Shown: piece after piece, positions 30,723 to 41,402 of the stretch
How the letters are laid out: the number at the start of each line of letters is the position of its first letter
How positions within the stretch are numbered: the stretch's first letter is position 1
Assembly: GCA_016874795.1 (NCBI GenBank)
Contig: VGTG01000033.1
Location: 1-44,060 of the forward strand
Direction: 5' to 3'
Source of the DNA: Deltaproteobacteria bacterium
GTDB lineage: Bacteria; Desulfobacterota; Binatia; UBA12015
Length of the DNA: 44,060 nt
The notes under the pieces: model-generated
What the model was told of the DNA's origin: nothing
Database searches by the model: none
Seen by the model: only the letters and a program-made list of their open reading frames with translations
Program-made: the position numbers and the translations under genes

Positions 30723-32912
30723 ATGCTCGAAGTCCTCCGGGATGCGGGGACGCGAGGTCTCGAAATCTACGACGCAGGAAGAAAGGACCGGCGGGTCTCG
30801 ATCCGCTCGGGAGGCGGGCTCGCATGGCGGCGAGCGCTCGCGGCGTACCCGGTGTGCGCGGCGATCGCCCTTGCACTCGCGGCCGTCGGGCCGGCGCGTG
30901 CGCAGGAGCCCGAGCCCTCGCCGTCTCCGTCCCCGTCTACTTCCCCGTCGCTTGCACCGCGCGAGGCGCCGCCCGAGTCGAGCGCGATCGACCGCATCGA
31001 GGTCCAGGGCGAGACGCTCGGCGAGCTCGCCGATGCGACGTCGTTCGCGACCGTCATCGAGATCCACCAGCAGGCGGAGGAGTTCAAGACCGTCGCGCAA
31101 GTGCTCTCCGAGACGGTCGGGCTACAGGTGCGGAGCTTCGGCGGCCTCGGCGACTTCGCGACGGTCTCCGTGCGCGGGGCGAGCGCCGGACAGGTGCGCA
31201 TCTACTTCGACGACGTGCCGCTGACGCGCGCACGAAGCGACACCGTGAACCTCGCGGACCTGCCGCTCGAGCCCCTCGCGCGGATCGACGTCTACCGCGG
31301 CGTGACGCCGCTCTCCGTCGGCGCTTCGGCGCTCGGCGGCGTGATCAACCTCGTCACGAAGGATCCCGGCGAGGAACCGACGGTCGCTCTCCTCTTCGGC
31401 GGTGGCTCCTTCGGCACGCGGCAAGGGAGCGTGACGACCTCCACGCGCCGCGGCGACCTCGGCTTCCTCGGATCGTTCAACTACCTCGGATCCGAAGGCG
31501 ACTTCCCGTTTGACGACGACAACGGCACGCCGCTCAACCCCTTCGACGACGAGCGCGTGCGCCGCGAGAACAACCAGTTCAACTCCGGCGACGCGATCCT
31601 GAAGGCGATCTGGGACCTCTCACCGACCTCACGGATCGTCGGGCTGAACGAGCTCTTCATCAACGAGCAGGGCGTGCCCGGCATCGGCGCGCTTACCTCG
31701 AAGGACGCGAGCCTCTACGATTTCCGTAACCTGAGCTACGTCCGCTTCGAGAGCGACGACACGGGCTCGCTGCCGGAGGAGATCGATTCGACGCTCTTCT
31801 TCATCTACGAGGAGGAGCGCTTCACCGACCTGATGGGCGACATCGGGCCGGGAAACCAGTCGAGCCGCAATCGAAGCTTCGCCGGCGGTGCGAACGTGCA
31901 CGGCGTGCAGCCGCTCGGTGCGCATCTCCTCGAGGCGCGGCTCGACGTCGGCGGCGAGGTGTTCGTGCCGCGGAACCTCCTCGATCCGGAGCCGCAGGAC
32001 CCGAACCAGTCGCGCATCTCGTTCAACGTCGGCGTCGGCGACACGTGGTCGCTCCTCGAGGACTCGCTCCTTCTCGACGGACAGCTCCGCTACGAGCTCG
32101 CGAGCGACGACTTCGGCGACATCACGATCCCGTCCGGCGAGATCGTCGATGCGCCGACCGGCGGAACGAACCAGCTCTTCACGCCGCGCCTCGGCGCGCG
32201 CTGGCTTCCGTGGAACGAGCTCGCGCTCAAGATGAACGTCGGGCGCTACGGGCGCATCCCGAGCTTCTTCGAGCTGTTCGGGAATCGCGGCTTCGTCCTT
32301 GGCAATCCCAACTTGAAGCCCGAGCAGGGCGTCAACGTCGACGTCGGCTTCGAGGCGCGACCGCTCGATTGGGGCTTCCTCACGCGGTCCCGCGGCGAGG
32401 CCGTGTTCTTCTGGCGAAGCGTCGACGATCTGATCGTCCTCGAGCAGAACTCGCAGCAGCGCTCGATCTTCCGGAACCTCGCTTCCGCGGAGATCCTCGG
32501 CGTCGAGCTGAGCGCCGCGACGGTGCTCTGGGAGAACCTCGGTGTCACCGCGAACTACACCTACCAGGACGCGCGCGACGAGAGCGGCGGCGCCGCCGAC
32601 GGCAATCAGATCCCGGGCCTGCCGCGCAACGAGGGCTACGCGCGCATCGACTGGGACCGGTGGGACGCGGTCCCGTTCTACGAGCTGATCTTCGCGTCGG
32701 GAAACTTCGTCGACACACGCAACCTGCGCGAGATCCCGAGCCGCACGGTCCACACCCTCGGCCTCCGCTACACGCTGCCGCGCACGCCGCTCACGCTGAC
32801 GTTCGAGGCGCTCAACATCACCAACAACCAGATCGAGGACGTCGCCGGCTTCCCGCTGCCGGGTCTCTCGTTCTTCGGAACCGTGGCCTACCGCTGGGTC
32901 GGAGCCACGTGA
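30723..32912 (+). CDS. btuB: TonB-dependent outer-membrane receptor, BtuB-like
   Basis: 729 residues. An extended n-region, then a hydrophobic signal core (about 40-58) ending GPARA, a Pro/Ser-rich linker, the plug domain (FATVSVRGASAGQVRIYFDDVPL; quoted in part: VSVRGASAG, IYFDDVPL, LGGVINLVTKDPG) and a 22-stranded-barrel type C-terminus ending in aromatic VAYRWVGAT. The riboswitch makes cobalamin or another corrinoid the likely ligand. The start is uncertain: ATG 30723 has no ribosome site, and a strong purine-rich AGGAAGAAAGGA (30776-30787) lies downstream of it with no standard in-frame start codon after it. Confidence 0.88.
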   Translation: MLEVLRDAGTRGLEIYDAGRKDRRVSIRSGGGLAWRRALAAYPVCAAIALALAAVGPARAQEPEPSPSPSPSTSPSLAPREAPPESSAIDRIEVQGETLGELADATSFATVIEIHQQAEEFKTVAQVLSETVGLQVRSFGGLGDFATVSVRGASAGQVRIYFDDVPLTRARSDTVNLADLPLEPLARIDVYRGVTPLSVGASALGGVINLVTKDPGEEPTVALLFGGGSFGTRQGSVTTSTRRGDLGFLGSFNYLGSEGDFPFDDDNGTPLNPFDDERVRRENNQFNSGDAILKAIWDLSPTSRIVGLNELFINEQGVPGIGALTSKDASLYDFRNLSYVRFESDDTGSLPEEIDSTLFFIYEEERFTDLMGDIGPGNQSSRNRSFAGGANVHGVQPLGAHLLEARLDVGGEVFVPRNLLDPEPQDPNQSRISFNVGVGDTWSLLEDSLLLDGQLRYELASDDFGDITIPSGEIVDAPTGGTNQLFTPRLGARWLPWNELALKMNVGRYGRIPSFFELFGNRGFVLGNPNLKPEQGVNVDVGFEARPLDWGFLTRSRGEAVFFWRSVDDLIVLEQNSQQRSIFRNLASAEILGVELSAATVLWENLGVTANYTYQDARDESGGAADGNQIPGLPRNEGYARIDWDRWDAVPFYELIFASGNFVDTRNLREIPSRTVHTLGLRYTLPRTPLTLTFEALNITNNQIEDVAGFPLPGLSFFGTVAYRWVGAT

Positions 32913-35293: not shown

Positions 35294-35408
35294 GCGCGGT
35301 CCTACCGCGATCGTCCGCGGCCGCGAAAGCGGGTCGCCCCACCGGGCCGCGCCGCCCCCGATTGGACCTGGCGAACGAGCGAGAATTGGCCCTCGGAAGG
35401 GAGCCAAT

Positions 35409-35427
35409 CGCGGGATACCTTCCCGCG
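35409..35427. promoter_or_regulatory. hairpin upstream of the molybdopterin oxidoreductase gene
   Basis: 7-bp stem CGCGGGA / TCCCGCG with a 5-base loop, preceded by an inverted repeat ATTGGC (35385-35390) / GCCAAT (35403-35408). Both lie within 70 bases of the ribosome site (GGAGG, 35441-35445); they may be an operator or leader structure. Confidence 0.35.
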
Positions 35428-35452
35428 CGTCAGCTGGACTGGAGGACTGCGA

Positions 35453-37693
35453 ATGGCCGAGCGTCGAAGCGTTCCCCGTGTCTGTCCCTTCTGAGAGGCG
35501 ACCTGCGGCCTCAGCGTCGAGGTCGAGGGCGAGCGCGTCGTCACCGTCCGCGGGGACAAGGAAGACCCGTTCTCACGCGGCTTCCTCTGCCCGAAGGCGT
35601 ACGGCCTGAAGGAGCTCTACCACGACCCCGATCGCCTCCGTCGCCCGATGCGCCGCACCGCGAGCGGCTTCGAGGAGATCGGCTGGGACGAGGCGTACGA
35701 GGAGGTCGGCGCGCGGCTCTTCGAGATCCGCGAGAAGCACGGCAACGACGCGATCGGGCTCTACACCGGCAATCCGGTCGTGCACGATCTCGGCGCGCTC
35801 CTCTACCGTCCGGTGCTGCAGCGCGCGCTCGCGACGCGGAGCCTCTTCAACGCCTCGGCGATCGATACCCTGCCGAAGATCGTCCAGACGGGCCTGATGT
35901 TCGGACGGCACTTCCCGCTCGGCGTGCCGATTCCCGACATCGACCGCACGAGCTACCTCCTCGTGATCGGCGCGAACCCGGTGATCTCGCACGGGAGCCT
36001 GATGACCATGCCGGACGCGCCGGGCCGCCTGAAGCGCGTCCTCGAGCGCGGCGGCAAGGTCGTCGTCATCGATCCGCGACGGACGGAGACCGCGCGCATC
36101 GCGAGCGAGCACCACTTCATCCGCCCGGGATCCGACGCGGCGTTCCTCCTGTCCCTCGTGCACGTGCTCTTCGACGAGGACCTGGTCGATCTCGGAGCAG
36201 CGAAGGATCGCGTGAGCGGGCTCGACACGGTGCGCGCGATCGTGCGCGACTTCGCGCCGGGAGCGGTCGCCGAGCACTGCGGCATCGCCGCGGAGACGAC
36301 GCGGCGGATCGCGCGCGAGATCGCCGCGGCGGAGTCTGCCGCCTGCTACGGCCGGCTCGGCACGTGCGTGCAGGAGTTCGGCACGCTCGCGAGCTGGGGC
36401 TGCGATCTCGTCAACATCCTCACCGGCAATCTCGATCGCGCCGGCGGCGTCATGTTCCCGAATGCCGCGGCGCCGGTCGACGCCGCGTTCCCGCGCGGCA
36501 AGGGCTTCGAGATCGGCCGCTGGAAGAGCCGCGTCAGCGGCCAGCCCGAGGTCGAGGGGATGATCCCCTCGTCGACGATGGCGGAGGAGATGCTGACGCC
36601 CGGCGAAGGCCAGGTGCGCGCGATGATCCTCCTCATGACGAACCCGGTGCGGAGCGCGGCGAACTCCGCGCAGCTCGAGGAGGCGTTCTCGAAGCTCGAC
36701 TACCTCGTCGCCGTCGACTTCTACCTGAACGAGTCGACGCGCCACGCGAACATGATCCTGCCGACGCCGTCCCCGCTCGAGTACGCGAACTACGAGGTCG
36801 GCCTCTACCTGCTCTCGGTGCGGAACGTCGCGAAATGGTCGTGGCCCGCGGTGCCGTCGCCGCCCGACACGCAGCAGACGTGGGAGGTTCTCCTCCAGCT
36901 GAGCGCGCGCTTGATGGGACTCGGCGGCACGCCGCTTCGGGACGTCGACGCGTTCGTCGTGCACGGCTACGCCGAGGGCGCGGTCGCCGCGAACGGCGAC
37001 AACGGACGGTGGGCCGGCCTCACGCTCGAGGAGGTGACGCAGCAGCTCGGCGCCGATCCGGGACCGGAGCGTCTCGTCGACATGCTCCTCCGCGTCGGCC
37101 CCTACGGCGACGGCTTCGGCCGCAATCCCGACGGCTTGACGCTCGAGAAGGTGCAGGCGGCGCGGCACGGCATCGATTTCGGTCCGCTCGCCCCGCGTCT
37201 CGACGAGGTGATCCACACGGAGAGCGGGAGGATCGACCTCGCTCCGCCGACGATGACGGAAGACCTCGGGCGCCTGCGCACACGCATGACGCCTCGCAAC
37301 AGCGGCTTCGTGCTGATCGGGAGGCGTGATCTCCGCTGCAGCAACTCGTTCATGCACAACCTTCCGGCGCTCGTGAAGGGCCCCGATCGCTGCACGCTGC
37401 ACGTGAGCCGCGAGGACGCCGTCCGGATCGGGCTCGAGGACGGCGGCGCCGCTCGCGTGACGAGTCGCGTCGGCAGCGTCGTCGCACCGGTCGAGGTCAC
37501 GGACGACCTGATGCCGGGCGTCGTCAGCCTGCCGCACGGCTGGGGGCACGACGCTCCGGGATCACAGCTCCGCGTCGCGCAGGCGCACGCCGGGGTCAAC
37601 ACCAACATCCTGACGGATGATCGCGCCTACGACGCCGCGAGCGGCACCGCGGTGCTCTTCGGAACTCCGGTGACGGTCGTCCCGGAGGCTTGA
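35453..37693 (+). CDS. molybdopterin-dependent oxidoreductase with TGA in place of an Fe-S cysteine codon
   Basis: From ATG 35453 (GGAGG ribosome site) the frame is continuous to 37693 (746 residues, normal family length) except for TGA at 35492-35494, codon 14. It falls exactly on the second cysteine of the [4Fe-4S] motif: C11-P-F-(TGA)-E-A-T-C18-G, with the fourth ligand C46 in FLCPKA. The rest shows the bis-MGD domain (YTGNPVVHDLG, FGRHFPLGVPIPDID) and the molydopterin-binding C-terminus (SNSFMHNLP, SLPHGWGH). Translation from the next good ATG (35648) would lose the whole Fe-S segment. Either a single-base lesion (TGC to TGA) or decoding of UGA as Cys/Sec. Electron-transfer partner and substrate are unknown. 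The stop abuts the convergent btuF stop. Confidence 0.82.
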
Positions 37694-38647
37694 TCAGGGA
37701 CGCGGCTCCGCGTCCTCGTGCACCAGGGAGAAGAGCTCCCGCGCCGCGGCCGCGATGCGCGGGCCGGGACGCAGCAGGATCCACGAATGGACCGGCCGCA
37801 CGCGCCCGTCGCGCACGGCCGGAACCGAGCGGTACGCCTCCCAGTACGCCTCGAGCGCCGCATTCGCCTCGGAGCCCATCGCACCGTCGACGATCACCTC
37901 GGGCGCCGCCGCGACGACGGTCTCGAGCGACAGACGCGGCCACGGCAGGCCCGAGGCCTTGCCGACGTTCCGGCCGCCCGCGACCTCGATCAGCTCGTCG
38001 ATGAAGAGGCCGCCGCCGGCCACGACGAGCGGATCGTGGCCGACGACGAAGAGCACCCGCCGCGTCGGACGCTCCGCGGCGCGGCGTCGCACGTCGTCGA
38101 GCTCGCCTTGAAGCTTCGCGACGAGGCGCTCGGCCGCGGGCGCGGTGTCCGTCCACCGTCCGACCGTGCGGATCGCCTCCCAGGTGTCCGCGAGCGTGTG
38201 CTCGCCGACCATCACGACCTCGAGCCCGAGCGAGCCGAGCTGCTCGACGGAAGCTTGATTGCCGGGGGTCGGAACGCCGATCACGACGTCCGGCTCGAGC
38301 GCGACGATCGCCTCGATGCTGGGCGCGTTGTAGGTGCCGATGCGTGGCAGCTTCGTCGCCTCGGGCGGATGGTCGCAGAACGTCGAGATGCCGACGAGCC
38401 GATCGCCTGCGCCGAGCGCAAAAACGGTCTCGGTGACGGAGGGAACGAGCGAGACGATACGACGCGCACCGCCGGGCGGCGGCTCGCTCGCGCGGCCCGG
38501 AGCGGCTTCGCCCGCGGAGCCCGTCGGCGACGGCGCGACGGCCGACGTCGCCGTGCTCGCGTCGCTCGCGACGCTCGCGACGCCCGACGCGCTCTGTGCG
38601 AGGGCGAGAATCATCGCGAGCACCGGAATCGCAAGAAGCGACTTCAC
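37694..38647 (-). CDS. btuF: periplasmic corrinoid-binding protein
   Basis: 317 residues: signal peptide (about 1-22, VLAMILALAQSASG), a low-complexity Ala/Ser/Pro linker, then a helical-backbone metal-receptor fold with RIVSLVPSVTETVFALG, LVGISTFCDHPPEA and IGTYNAPSIEAIVALEPDVVIG (quoted in parts), which is the BtuF pattern. It would deliver cobinamide or cobalamin to a BtuCD permease, but no btuC or btuD is present in this window. It is the last gene of the cobamide operon; its GTG start overlaps the cobS stop (GTGA, 38644-38647). Confidence 0.88.
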   Translation of the reverse strand: MKSLLAIPVLAMILALAQSASGVASVASDASTATSAVAPSPTGSAGEAAPGRASEPPPGGARRIVSLVPSVTETVFALGAGDRLVGISTFCDHPPEATKLPRIGTYNAPSIEAIVALEPDVVIGVPTPGNQASVEQLGSLGLEVVMVGEHTLADTWEAIRTVGRWTDTAPAAERLVAKLQGELDDVRRRAAERPTRRVLFVVGHDPLVVAGGGLFIDELIEVAGGRNVGKASGLPWPRLSLETVVAAAPEVIVDGAMGSEANAALEAYWEAYRSVPAVRDGRVRPVHSWILLRPGPRIAAAARELFSLVHEDAEPRP

Positions 38648-39408
38648 GCCGGCCCTCCGCACCAGGCCGCGGTCACGCAGAGGAACGCGACCTCCGCGAT
38701 CTCGATTCCGGCTCCATAGAGGTCGCCGGTGAGCCCGCCGATCCGGCGAGAAGCCCACGCCCAGAACGCGAGCGCCGCGACTGCGGCCCCGACCGAGGCG
38801 CCGAGCGCCGCGACGGCACCGCCTGGAACGAGTACGAGAGCGAGCGCGACGATCACGCTCGCGACGGCGACGTCCGACGTCTCCCCGTGATCACGGAAAG
38901 CGCGCCCGAGCCCGCTCGGCCGCGCATACGGAAACGCGGCAACGGCCACCGCAGCGAGCCAGCGGGAGACCGCCGGTGCGACGAGCACGAGAGCGGAGGC
39001 GCCGTCGAGCACCGGCTCGAGCGCCGCCACTTTCGCGAGCACGGCGAGCAGCAACGCGACGGCGCCGAAGGCGCCGATTCGGCTGTCGCGCATCACCTCG
39101 AGCGCGCGCTCGCGATCGCGCGTGCTCGCGAGCGCGTCGAACGAATCGGCGAGCCCGTCGAGGTGGAGCCCGCCGGTCGCGACGACGAGGACCGCGACGA
39201 CGACGATCGCGGGCAGAATTCCCGGCAGGAGACTGCTCGCGAGATTCCCCGCCGCGAGCGCGAGAGCCCCGAGCACGAGACCGACGGCGGGGAACGCGGC
39301 GAGCGAGCGGCCGAGCTCTGCGTCCGTGATCGTTCCGCGATCGCCGGGAAGGCGCGTCAAGAATGCCCACGCGACGACGAAGCGGCGCGGCGCGGAGACC
39401 TGCTTCAC
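38644..39408 (-). CDS. cobS: adenosylcobinamide-GDP ribazoletransferase (cobalamin synthase)
   Basis: 254-residue integral membrane protein that joins GDP-cobinamide to alpha-ribazole(-phosphate), the last assembly step. Typical CobS N-terminus FLTRLPG, the acidic metal-binding motif [14 protein letters not shown] (about 62-75), then alternating hydrophobic helices. The GTG start overlaps the cbiB stop (GTGA at 39405-39408), as with most junctions in this operon. Confidence 0.92.
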
Positions 39409-40334
39409 GCGTTTCCCCACGCGCTGCCGGCGAGAGCGAGACCGGCGGCGATCCCGCACGTGAGACGCGTCGTCCGCCACGCTTCGGCGATCGTCGCGGC
39501 GTTCACCGGTCGAACCGCGTCGCCGAGACGATACGCTCCCGGCTTCGCGAGCTCGACGCCGAGGAGCCCCGCCATCGCGGCCATCGGCCGCCCTGCGTTC
39601 GGGCTCTCGGTGCGCGCGCCGTCGCGGCGCAGCACGCGCCAGCCGCGGCGCGCGTCGTTGCCACGAAGAGCACCGGCGACGAGCAGGAGACCGGTCGTCA
39701 GCCGCGCCGGGATGAGATTCAGCAGATCGTCGAGACGCGCCGCCGCCTTTCCGAGGTGCTCGTAGCGTCCGTGGTAGCCGATCATCGCGTCCATCGTGTT
39801 GACGGCACGATAGAGCACCGCTCCGGGCAGGCCCGCGAGAGCGAAGTAGAAGAGCGGCGCGACGAAGCTGTCGGAGGCGTTCTCGGCGACGGACTCCGTC
39901 GCACCCTGCGCCACCTGCGTCGCGTCGAGACGCGACGGATCGCGGCTGCAGAGCGAGCGAAGACCCGAGCGCGCCGCCTCGAGATCGCCGCGCGCGAGAT
40001 CGTCGTGCACGCGCATCGCCGCCCGGCCGAGCGCGCGAAGCGCGAAGGTCGGCTTCAGGAGCAGCACCGCGAGCGCCATCCCGAGCCACGTCGAAGGCTC
40101 GGCGACCCGCACCACCAACGCTGCGAGAGCCGCGGACGCGCCCGGCACGACGAGCGCCATCGCGGCGCCCCAAAGAAGCTCCGGCACGGCCCCGCTCGGT
40201 GCGAGCCGCTCGAGCGCGCGCACGGCACTTCCCATCCACACGACCGGGTGCAGCCGATTCGGCGGCTCCCCGAAAGTCGCGTCGACGAGAAGAGCGAGTG
40301 CGAGGACCAGCGGGCCCTCGTCGAAGGCAACCAC
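39405..40334 (-). CDS. cbiB: adenosylcobinamide-phosphate synthase
   Basis: 309-residue membrane protein (CbiB/CobD) that attaches the aminopropanol arm to adenosylcobyric acid. Motifs: [18 protein letters not shown] near the N-terminus, [19 protein letters not shown], and [13 protein letters not shown]. It acts after CbiZ has removed a foreign lower-ligand-bearing arm, rebuilding the nucleotide loop. GTG start immediately after the cobT stop, with no gap. Confidence 0.93.
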
Positions 40335-41402
40335 TCAGGCTCCGCTGTCCGCGACGCCGGCCTCGGCGAAGCTCGCCATCTCGTGGAGGATGCGAAGCGC
40401 GGCGTCGACGAGTCCCATCGCGAGGGCCGAGCCGGTTCCTTCACCGAGCCGGAGCTCGAGATCGAGGAGCGGCACGAGGCCGAGAGCGCGGAGGAGATGT
40501 GCGTGTCCCGCCTCGACGGAGAGATGCGAGGCGATCAGATAGTCCTCGGCGCGCGGCGCGAGGCGCGTCGCGACGAGCGCCGCAGCGGCGGCGATGAAGC
40601 CGTCGACGAGGACCGGCACGCGCGCGGCAGCCGCGCCGAGCACGACGCCCGCGAGCCCCGCGACCTCGAAGCCGCCGAGCCGCGCGAGAACGTCGAGCGG
40701 ATCCGCCGAGCCAGGCGGAGCGAGCCGGTTCACGGCGAGCGCTTCCTCGACGATCGCAACCTTCCGCGCGAGCGTCGCCGCGTCGATGCCGGTGCCGCGT
40801 CCCGTCACCTCGCGCACGCTGGCACCGGTGAGGCAGGCGGTGAGAGCGCTCGCCGCGGTCGTGTTGCCGATCCCCATCTCGCCGATGCCGAGGAGCGTGA
40901 TCCCGTCGCGAGCGAGCTCCGCCGCGAGCGCGATGCCGACCTCGAGAGCCGCCTCCGCCTCGTCGCGCGACATCGCCGGACCCGCGGTGAAGTCCTTCGT
41001 TCCGGGTCCGATGCGCCGCGCGAGAACGGCCGGCAGGTGCGACGGAGCCGCGATCACACCCATGTCGACGACGATCACGCGTGCGCCGGCCTGGCGCGCG
41101 AGGACGTTCACGCCGGCGCCACCGCTCGCGAAGTTGGCGAGCATCTGCGCCGTCACCTCCTGCGGATACGCGCTGACGCCGCGCGAGACGACGCCGTGGT
41201 CGGCCGCCATCACGACGAGGGCCTTCTCCGGCATCGGTGGGACCGGCGTCCCGCGAATCGCCGCGAAGCGGCAGGCGAGATCCTCGAGCCGCCCGAGGCT
41301 CCGGCGCGGCTTCGTCTTCTCGTCGAGGAGCCGCTGCGTTTCCGCACCGACGGCGGGATCGACGGCCGCGATGCCGGCGATCGTCTCGCGGAGCCGGCTC
41401 AC
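40335..41402 (-). CDS. cobT: nicotinate-nucleotide--dimethylbenzimidazole phosphoribosyltransferase
   Basis: 355 residues. Activates the lower-ligand base to alpha-ribazole phosphate. Motifs: MAADHGVVSRGVSAYP, GIGEMGIGNTTAASAL and the C-terminal RLGEGTGSALA containing the catalytic base Glu321 (Glu317 in Salmonella). GTG start overlaps the cobU stop (41399-41402). With CobU and CobS it completes nucleotide-loop assembly. Confidence 0.95.
   Translation of the reverse strand: MSRLRETIAGIAAVDPAVGAETQRLLDEKTKPRRSLGRLEDLACRFAAIRGTPVPPMPEKALVVMAADHGVVSRGVSAYPQEVTAQMLANFASGGAGVNVLARQAGARVIVVDMGVIAAPSHLPAVLARRIGPGTKDFTAGPAMSRDEAEAALEVGIALAAELARDGITLLGIGEMGIGNTTAASALTACLTGASVREVTGRGTGIDAATLARKVAIVEEALAVNRLAPPGSADPLDVLARLGGFEVAGLAGVVLGAAAARVPVLVDGFIAAAAALVATRLAPRAEDYLIASHLSVEAGHAHLLRALGLVPLLDLELRLGEGTGSALAMGLVDAALRILHEMASFAEAGVADSGA

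Follow-up and report, generated by a model that had tools for sequence, protein, structure and literature searches.

An in-frame TGA at a cluster cysteine codon of a molybdopterin oxidoreductase gene: probable nonsense change or assembly error, with selenocysteine as a less likely reading

What might explain why a molybdopterin oxidoreductase gene of a deltaproteobacterium, whole in every other respect, carries a stop codon exactly where the second cysteine of its N-terminal iron-sulfur cluster motif should be encoded? The gene, 746 codons of the DMSO reductase superfamily interrupted at codon 14, occupies positions 35453-37693 on the plus strand of the window, by which we mean the entire 44,060-nucleotide stretch of DNA that was analysed. 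The original prediction, made from the bare sequence, named a recent nonsense mutation, an assembly error, or recoding as cysteine or selenocysteine (Sec), and these are indeed the options that have to be weighed.

Results

Counted from the ATG at 35453, codon 14 is an in-frame TGA (35492-35494, plus strand). The gene reads MAERRSVPRVCPF-U-EATCGLSV..., with no further in-frame stop before the TGA at 37691-37693, and in the alignment codon 14 falls on Cys11 of E. coli FdhF (formate dehydrogenase H), a [4Fe-4S] ligand; the description of an otherwise intact gene with TGA at the second cluster cysteine is thus borne out. Equally preserved, as had been claimed, are the ribosome-binding site (GGAGG at 35441-35445, 7 bases 5' of the ATG), the start codon and the other three cluster cysteines, all on the plus strand: TGT at codon 11 (35483-35485), TGC at codon 18 (35504-35506) and TGC at codon 46 (35588-35590).

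The product matches the Pfam domains Molybdop_Fe4S4, Molybdopterin and Molydop_binding, and its nearest solved structures are the thiosulfate/polysulfide reductase 2vpw and E. coli FdhF (1aa6). Because it scores far under the cut-offs of TIGR01591 (234 bits against 666) and TIGR01553 (88.6 bits against 814), and because the molybdenum-site segment that is UHxP in Sec-containing formate dehydrogenase alpha subunits is IDTLPK, with neither Cys nor Sec, in the close orthologs of the gene, we assign the product by sequence to the molybdopterin oxidoreductases without an assigned substrate, and not to the formate dehydrogenases. FdhF (PDB 1aa6/1fdo) belongs to the same superfamily, but its Sec lies at the molybdenum (residue 140) and not at the cluster, and in the present protein neither Cys nor Sec aligns with that residue. 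The IDTLPK segment is invariant in the subfamily (L010-L015, L040, L042 and L058), and a paralogous group has D-Q-[MLF]-P-K; the segment suggests that aspartate or another non-thiol residue is the molybdenum ligand in this subfamily.

The oxidoreductase gene is adjoined in the window by a zinc-dependent dehydrogenase gene. It is followed on the minus strand by a cobalamin cluster at 37694-41402, comprising a BtuF-like periplasmic binding protein, an ORF with CobS, and a CobT-type phosphoribosyltransferase, and a TonB-dependent receptor is encoded at 30723-32912. Elsewhere in the source genome there are three paralogs without a stop, 47-52% identical to the interrupted gene (C19:45164-47374, C64:2390-4606 and C125:10471-12618), so that loss of the interrupted copy may well be tolerable. 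The oxidoreductase family is multi-copy throughout the class.

Would relatives alternate between TGA and TGC at codon 14, as the original prediction proposed to check? They do not. When the first 100 residues were compared by tblastn with the fetched loci, every homologous locus readable at codon 14 (76/76) had TGC or TGT. The 13 nearest loci, 67-73% identical, correspond to about nine distinct genes, some loci being present in two collections, and all of them have TGC or TGT and none shares the damage. The closest ortholog (L010/G003) is 73% identical. Six cysteine orthologs from the same class (L010/G003, L011/G068, L012/G051, L013/G073, L014/G031 and L015/G016) resemble the interrupted gene in their full-length identity of 67-73%, in the CPFC-E-[AG]-TCG motif and in the IDTLPK segment near the molybdenum site, but differ in that codon 14 is TGC or TGT and their frames are free of internal stops. 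Across 148 class genomes the degenerate pattern C-x-[FL]-U-E-A-x-C, with TGA for U, matched this gene alone, and no TGA-bearing homolog was found in the IMG/VR viral contigs scanned. A slightly stricter TGA pattern gave one further match among 395 phylum genomes, in G447; it was rejected as a second TGA homolog, the surrounding stretch being non-coding and full of stops. Within the collections searched, the TGA appears to be private to this assembly. Because the nearest ortholog is just 73% identical and closer relatives are lacking, the age of the change can be anything between fairly old in the lineage and a single-base error.

The body of the gene shows no sign of relaxed constraint. Nei-Gojobori (NG86) distances between the gene and nine orthologs gave dN of 0.20-0.25 and dS of 0.60-1.23, with dN/dS to the closest ortholog of about 0.26, and in nearly every comparison the dN of the gene to the orthologs is no greater than that among the orthologs themselves. 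At columns invariant in 19 homologs the gene differs in 1/147 (T to S), and no ortholog has fewer changes. Neither a second lesion nor relaxed selection was found by reading the frame for stops, by NG86 distances or at the invariant columns, and these comparisons indicate that the gene body has not decayed. The remark in the original prediction that a decayed gene would usually show more damage does not help recoding, since an intact body is to be expected under a recent nonsense change, an assembly error and functional recoding alike. Gene integrity gives recoding no edge over a recent nonsense mutation.

The source genome is a draft of 6.27 Mb in 360 contigs, 96.7% complete with 2.5% contamination. 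The suggestion to look there for selA, selB and selC was rewarded, with selD found in addition: a tRNA-Sec with anticodon UCA lies on contig C75 (2721-2813), SelA and SelB are adjacent on contig C26 (29217-32499), and SelD, whose catalytic loop GGCAAK has Cys, is on contig C172 (19-942). SelD lies in one frame with an oxidoreductase-like domain upstream. This system permits recoding without pointing to this gene, and it is ordinary in the class: selA is matched in 78/98 genomes, and in at least four of them (G016, G031, G068 and G073) it coexists with the cysteine version of this gene as a 67-71% identical ortholog. No selA match was obtained in G003, the 87% complete genome that holds the closest ortholog (73%). 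Despite the complete Sec system, the source genome yielded no Sec formate dehydrogenase; together with the Cys of SelD this suggests that the system is kept by other selenoproteins, among which a Sec oxidoreductase might be counted. As a positive control we sought a confirmed selenoprotein with a native SECIS element, by scanning coding frames for an in-frame TGA near Cys. No clear one was found in 2.24 Mb (36% of the genome), a weak negative, as the scan filters also exclude the target gene, whose first codons score low.

Could a structure in the message direct Sec insertion at this UGA? The hairpin originally pointed out, GAGGC/GCCTC with an 8-base loop, is present at 35495-35512 (plus strand), but it is no recoding mark. 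It is identical in an ortholog with TGC at codon 14 (L011/L041), and its loop begins 5 nt past the TGA, against 16-37 nt in the bacterial SECIS model; a ribosome positioned on the UGA would probably cover it. We rejected it as a SECIS element on the grounds of its presence behind TGC and its closeness to the UGA. The bacterial model calls for a loop of 3-9 nt, located 16-37 nt from the UGA and with G as its first or second nucleotide, and for a stability of at most -7.5 kcal/mol (PMC13188914). An alternative hairpin at 35506-35525 (plus strand), CGGCCTC-AGCGTC-GAGGTCG, falls within these limits, with 7 bp, a 6-nt loop with G at loop position 2, a stability of -10.3 kcal/mol and a loop located 18 nt past the TGA. 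However, among synonymous recodings of the same peptide, 28% hold some hairpin within the energy limit and 9% one as stable; for the 1,123 Cys codons of the genome the corresponding values are 13% and 5%; and the cysteine orthologs L010 and L058 have equivalent hairpins of -9.9 and -10.4 kcal/mol. Because comparable hairpins are so common, the fit of this candidate to the model carries modest weight. Its pair probability ranges between 0.2 and 0.96 according to which stretch is folded, and it competes with the hairpin at 35495-35512. A search of 35300-35800 against Rfam gave no match near any gathering score.

Discussion

We favour the view that this is an ordinary molybdopterin oxidoreductase gene with one cysteine-to-stop substitution, arising either from a recent nonsense mutation or from a base error in the assembly, and we give it a probability of about 0.79; this figure, like the gradings of the other readings, is a judgement and not a computed posterior. 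A TGC or TGT at codon 14 would have become TGA in an otherwise unremarkable gene. If the change is a nonsense mutation, the protein would be truncated after 13 residues; if it is an error, the consensus of a fragmented, draft-quality assembly would hold a wrong base at this position. The remainder of the gene would have been under normal selection until very recently and would for that reason still look intact, and UGA would terminate translation here, with no Sec inserted. One substitution accounts for everything.

The chief competitor, unlikely but deserving to be taken seriously, is that the UGA is read as Sec by SelB and tRNA-Sec under the direction of the hairpin at 35506-35525, with Sec serving as one of the four ligands of the N-terminal [4Fe-4S] cluster. 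This would be a recent switch from Cys to Sec, made by a single species within a lineage that decodes Sec, a proposal that we hold to be improbable to the same degree. What speaks for Sec, and against a nonsense change or an error, is that the genome has the complete decoding system, that the SECIS-like hairpin is well placed, that a site invariantly Cys in homologs has been hit while the gene bears no second lesion, and that such a hit has a low chance. Among random stop-making substitutions in this gene, 4-6% convert a Cys codon to TGA, and 1.6-2.5% do this at a cluster Cys codon, of which there are four. Taking the gene alone, odds of this size tilt the balance towards Sec by a factor of tens. 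Such a coincidence is unusual for a single gene, but not for a reader choosing across a window or a genome, and by our estimate several genes with a single stop are to be expected in a draft genome. It is also rare for Sec to arise newly at a structural metal ligand. It is on account of the picked coincidence, the expected single-stop genes, the rarity of such a site and the weakness of the SECIS evidence that we place Sec well below a nonsense change or an error. The solitary occurrence of the TGA counts against it as well: in the Sargasso Sea selenoproteome study, TGA/Cys pairs seen in a single sequence were ranked only as candidates, given the possibility of sequencing error (PMC1088965), and by that rule the pair described here remains only a candidate.

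Is Sec at such a position known from other proteins? The original prediction held that Sec as an iron-sulfur ligand would be without precedent at this site, and this agrees with the inventory of prokaryotic selenoproteins published in 2026, in which no listed family has Sec at this cluster ligand and both formate dehydrogenase and formylmethanofuran dehydrogenase have it only in the UHxP motif (PMC13188914). Known prokaryotic selenoproteins with iron-sulfur centres include HdrA with its CxxU motif, the (2Fe-2S)-binding selenoproteins and HgcB (PMC13188914). The resemblance is that Sec is found in, or next to, iron-sulfur proteins, as the candidate Sec would be here, and so the chemistry is not excluded; the difference is that none of the listed families combines membership of the DMSO reductase superfamily with Sec at the N-terminal cluster.

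Far less probable is that translation re-initiates at the ATG at 35648 and yields a protein that works without its iron-sulfur domain. The frame from this ATG is the longest stop-free ORF that starts 3' of the TGA (35648-37693, plus strand), open for 681 codons and lacking the whole iron-sulfur domain, and the cluster is absent from some members of the superfamily. However, this would do away with all four cluster cysteines, even though the gene conserves three of them, and a ribosome-binding site is not evident 5' of 35648. That a specialised tRNA-Cys bearing a UCA anticodon decodes the UGA as Cys, a reading for which the Cys at this site in all relatives would speak, is nearly refuted, since the 45 tRNA genes found in the genome (44 plus tRNA-Sec) include a single tRNA-Cys, with anticodon GCA, and the sole UCA anticodon belongs to tRNA-Sec; in an assembly about 97% complete a missing tRNA is possible but unlikely.

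The caution of the original prediction was warranted. If the TGA is a nonsense mutation or an assembly error, as we think probable, the finding is routine, a warning not to infer recoding from one copy of a gene. The complete Sec system nevertheless makes the site a cheap, testable candidate and not one to be dismissed. If Sec were truly inserted, a very large superfamily in which Sec is listed only at the molybdenum would gain a new selenoprotein site, and the enzyme would offer a natural test of the behaviour of a [4Fe-4S] cluster that has a selenolate among its ligands. The enzyme might also prove to be one of the selenoproteins for which this lineage retains its Sec system.
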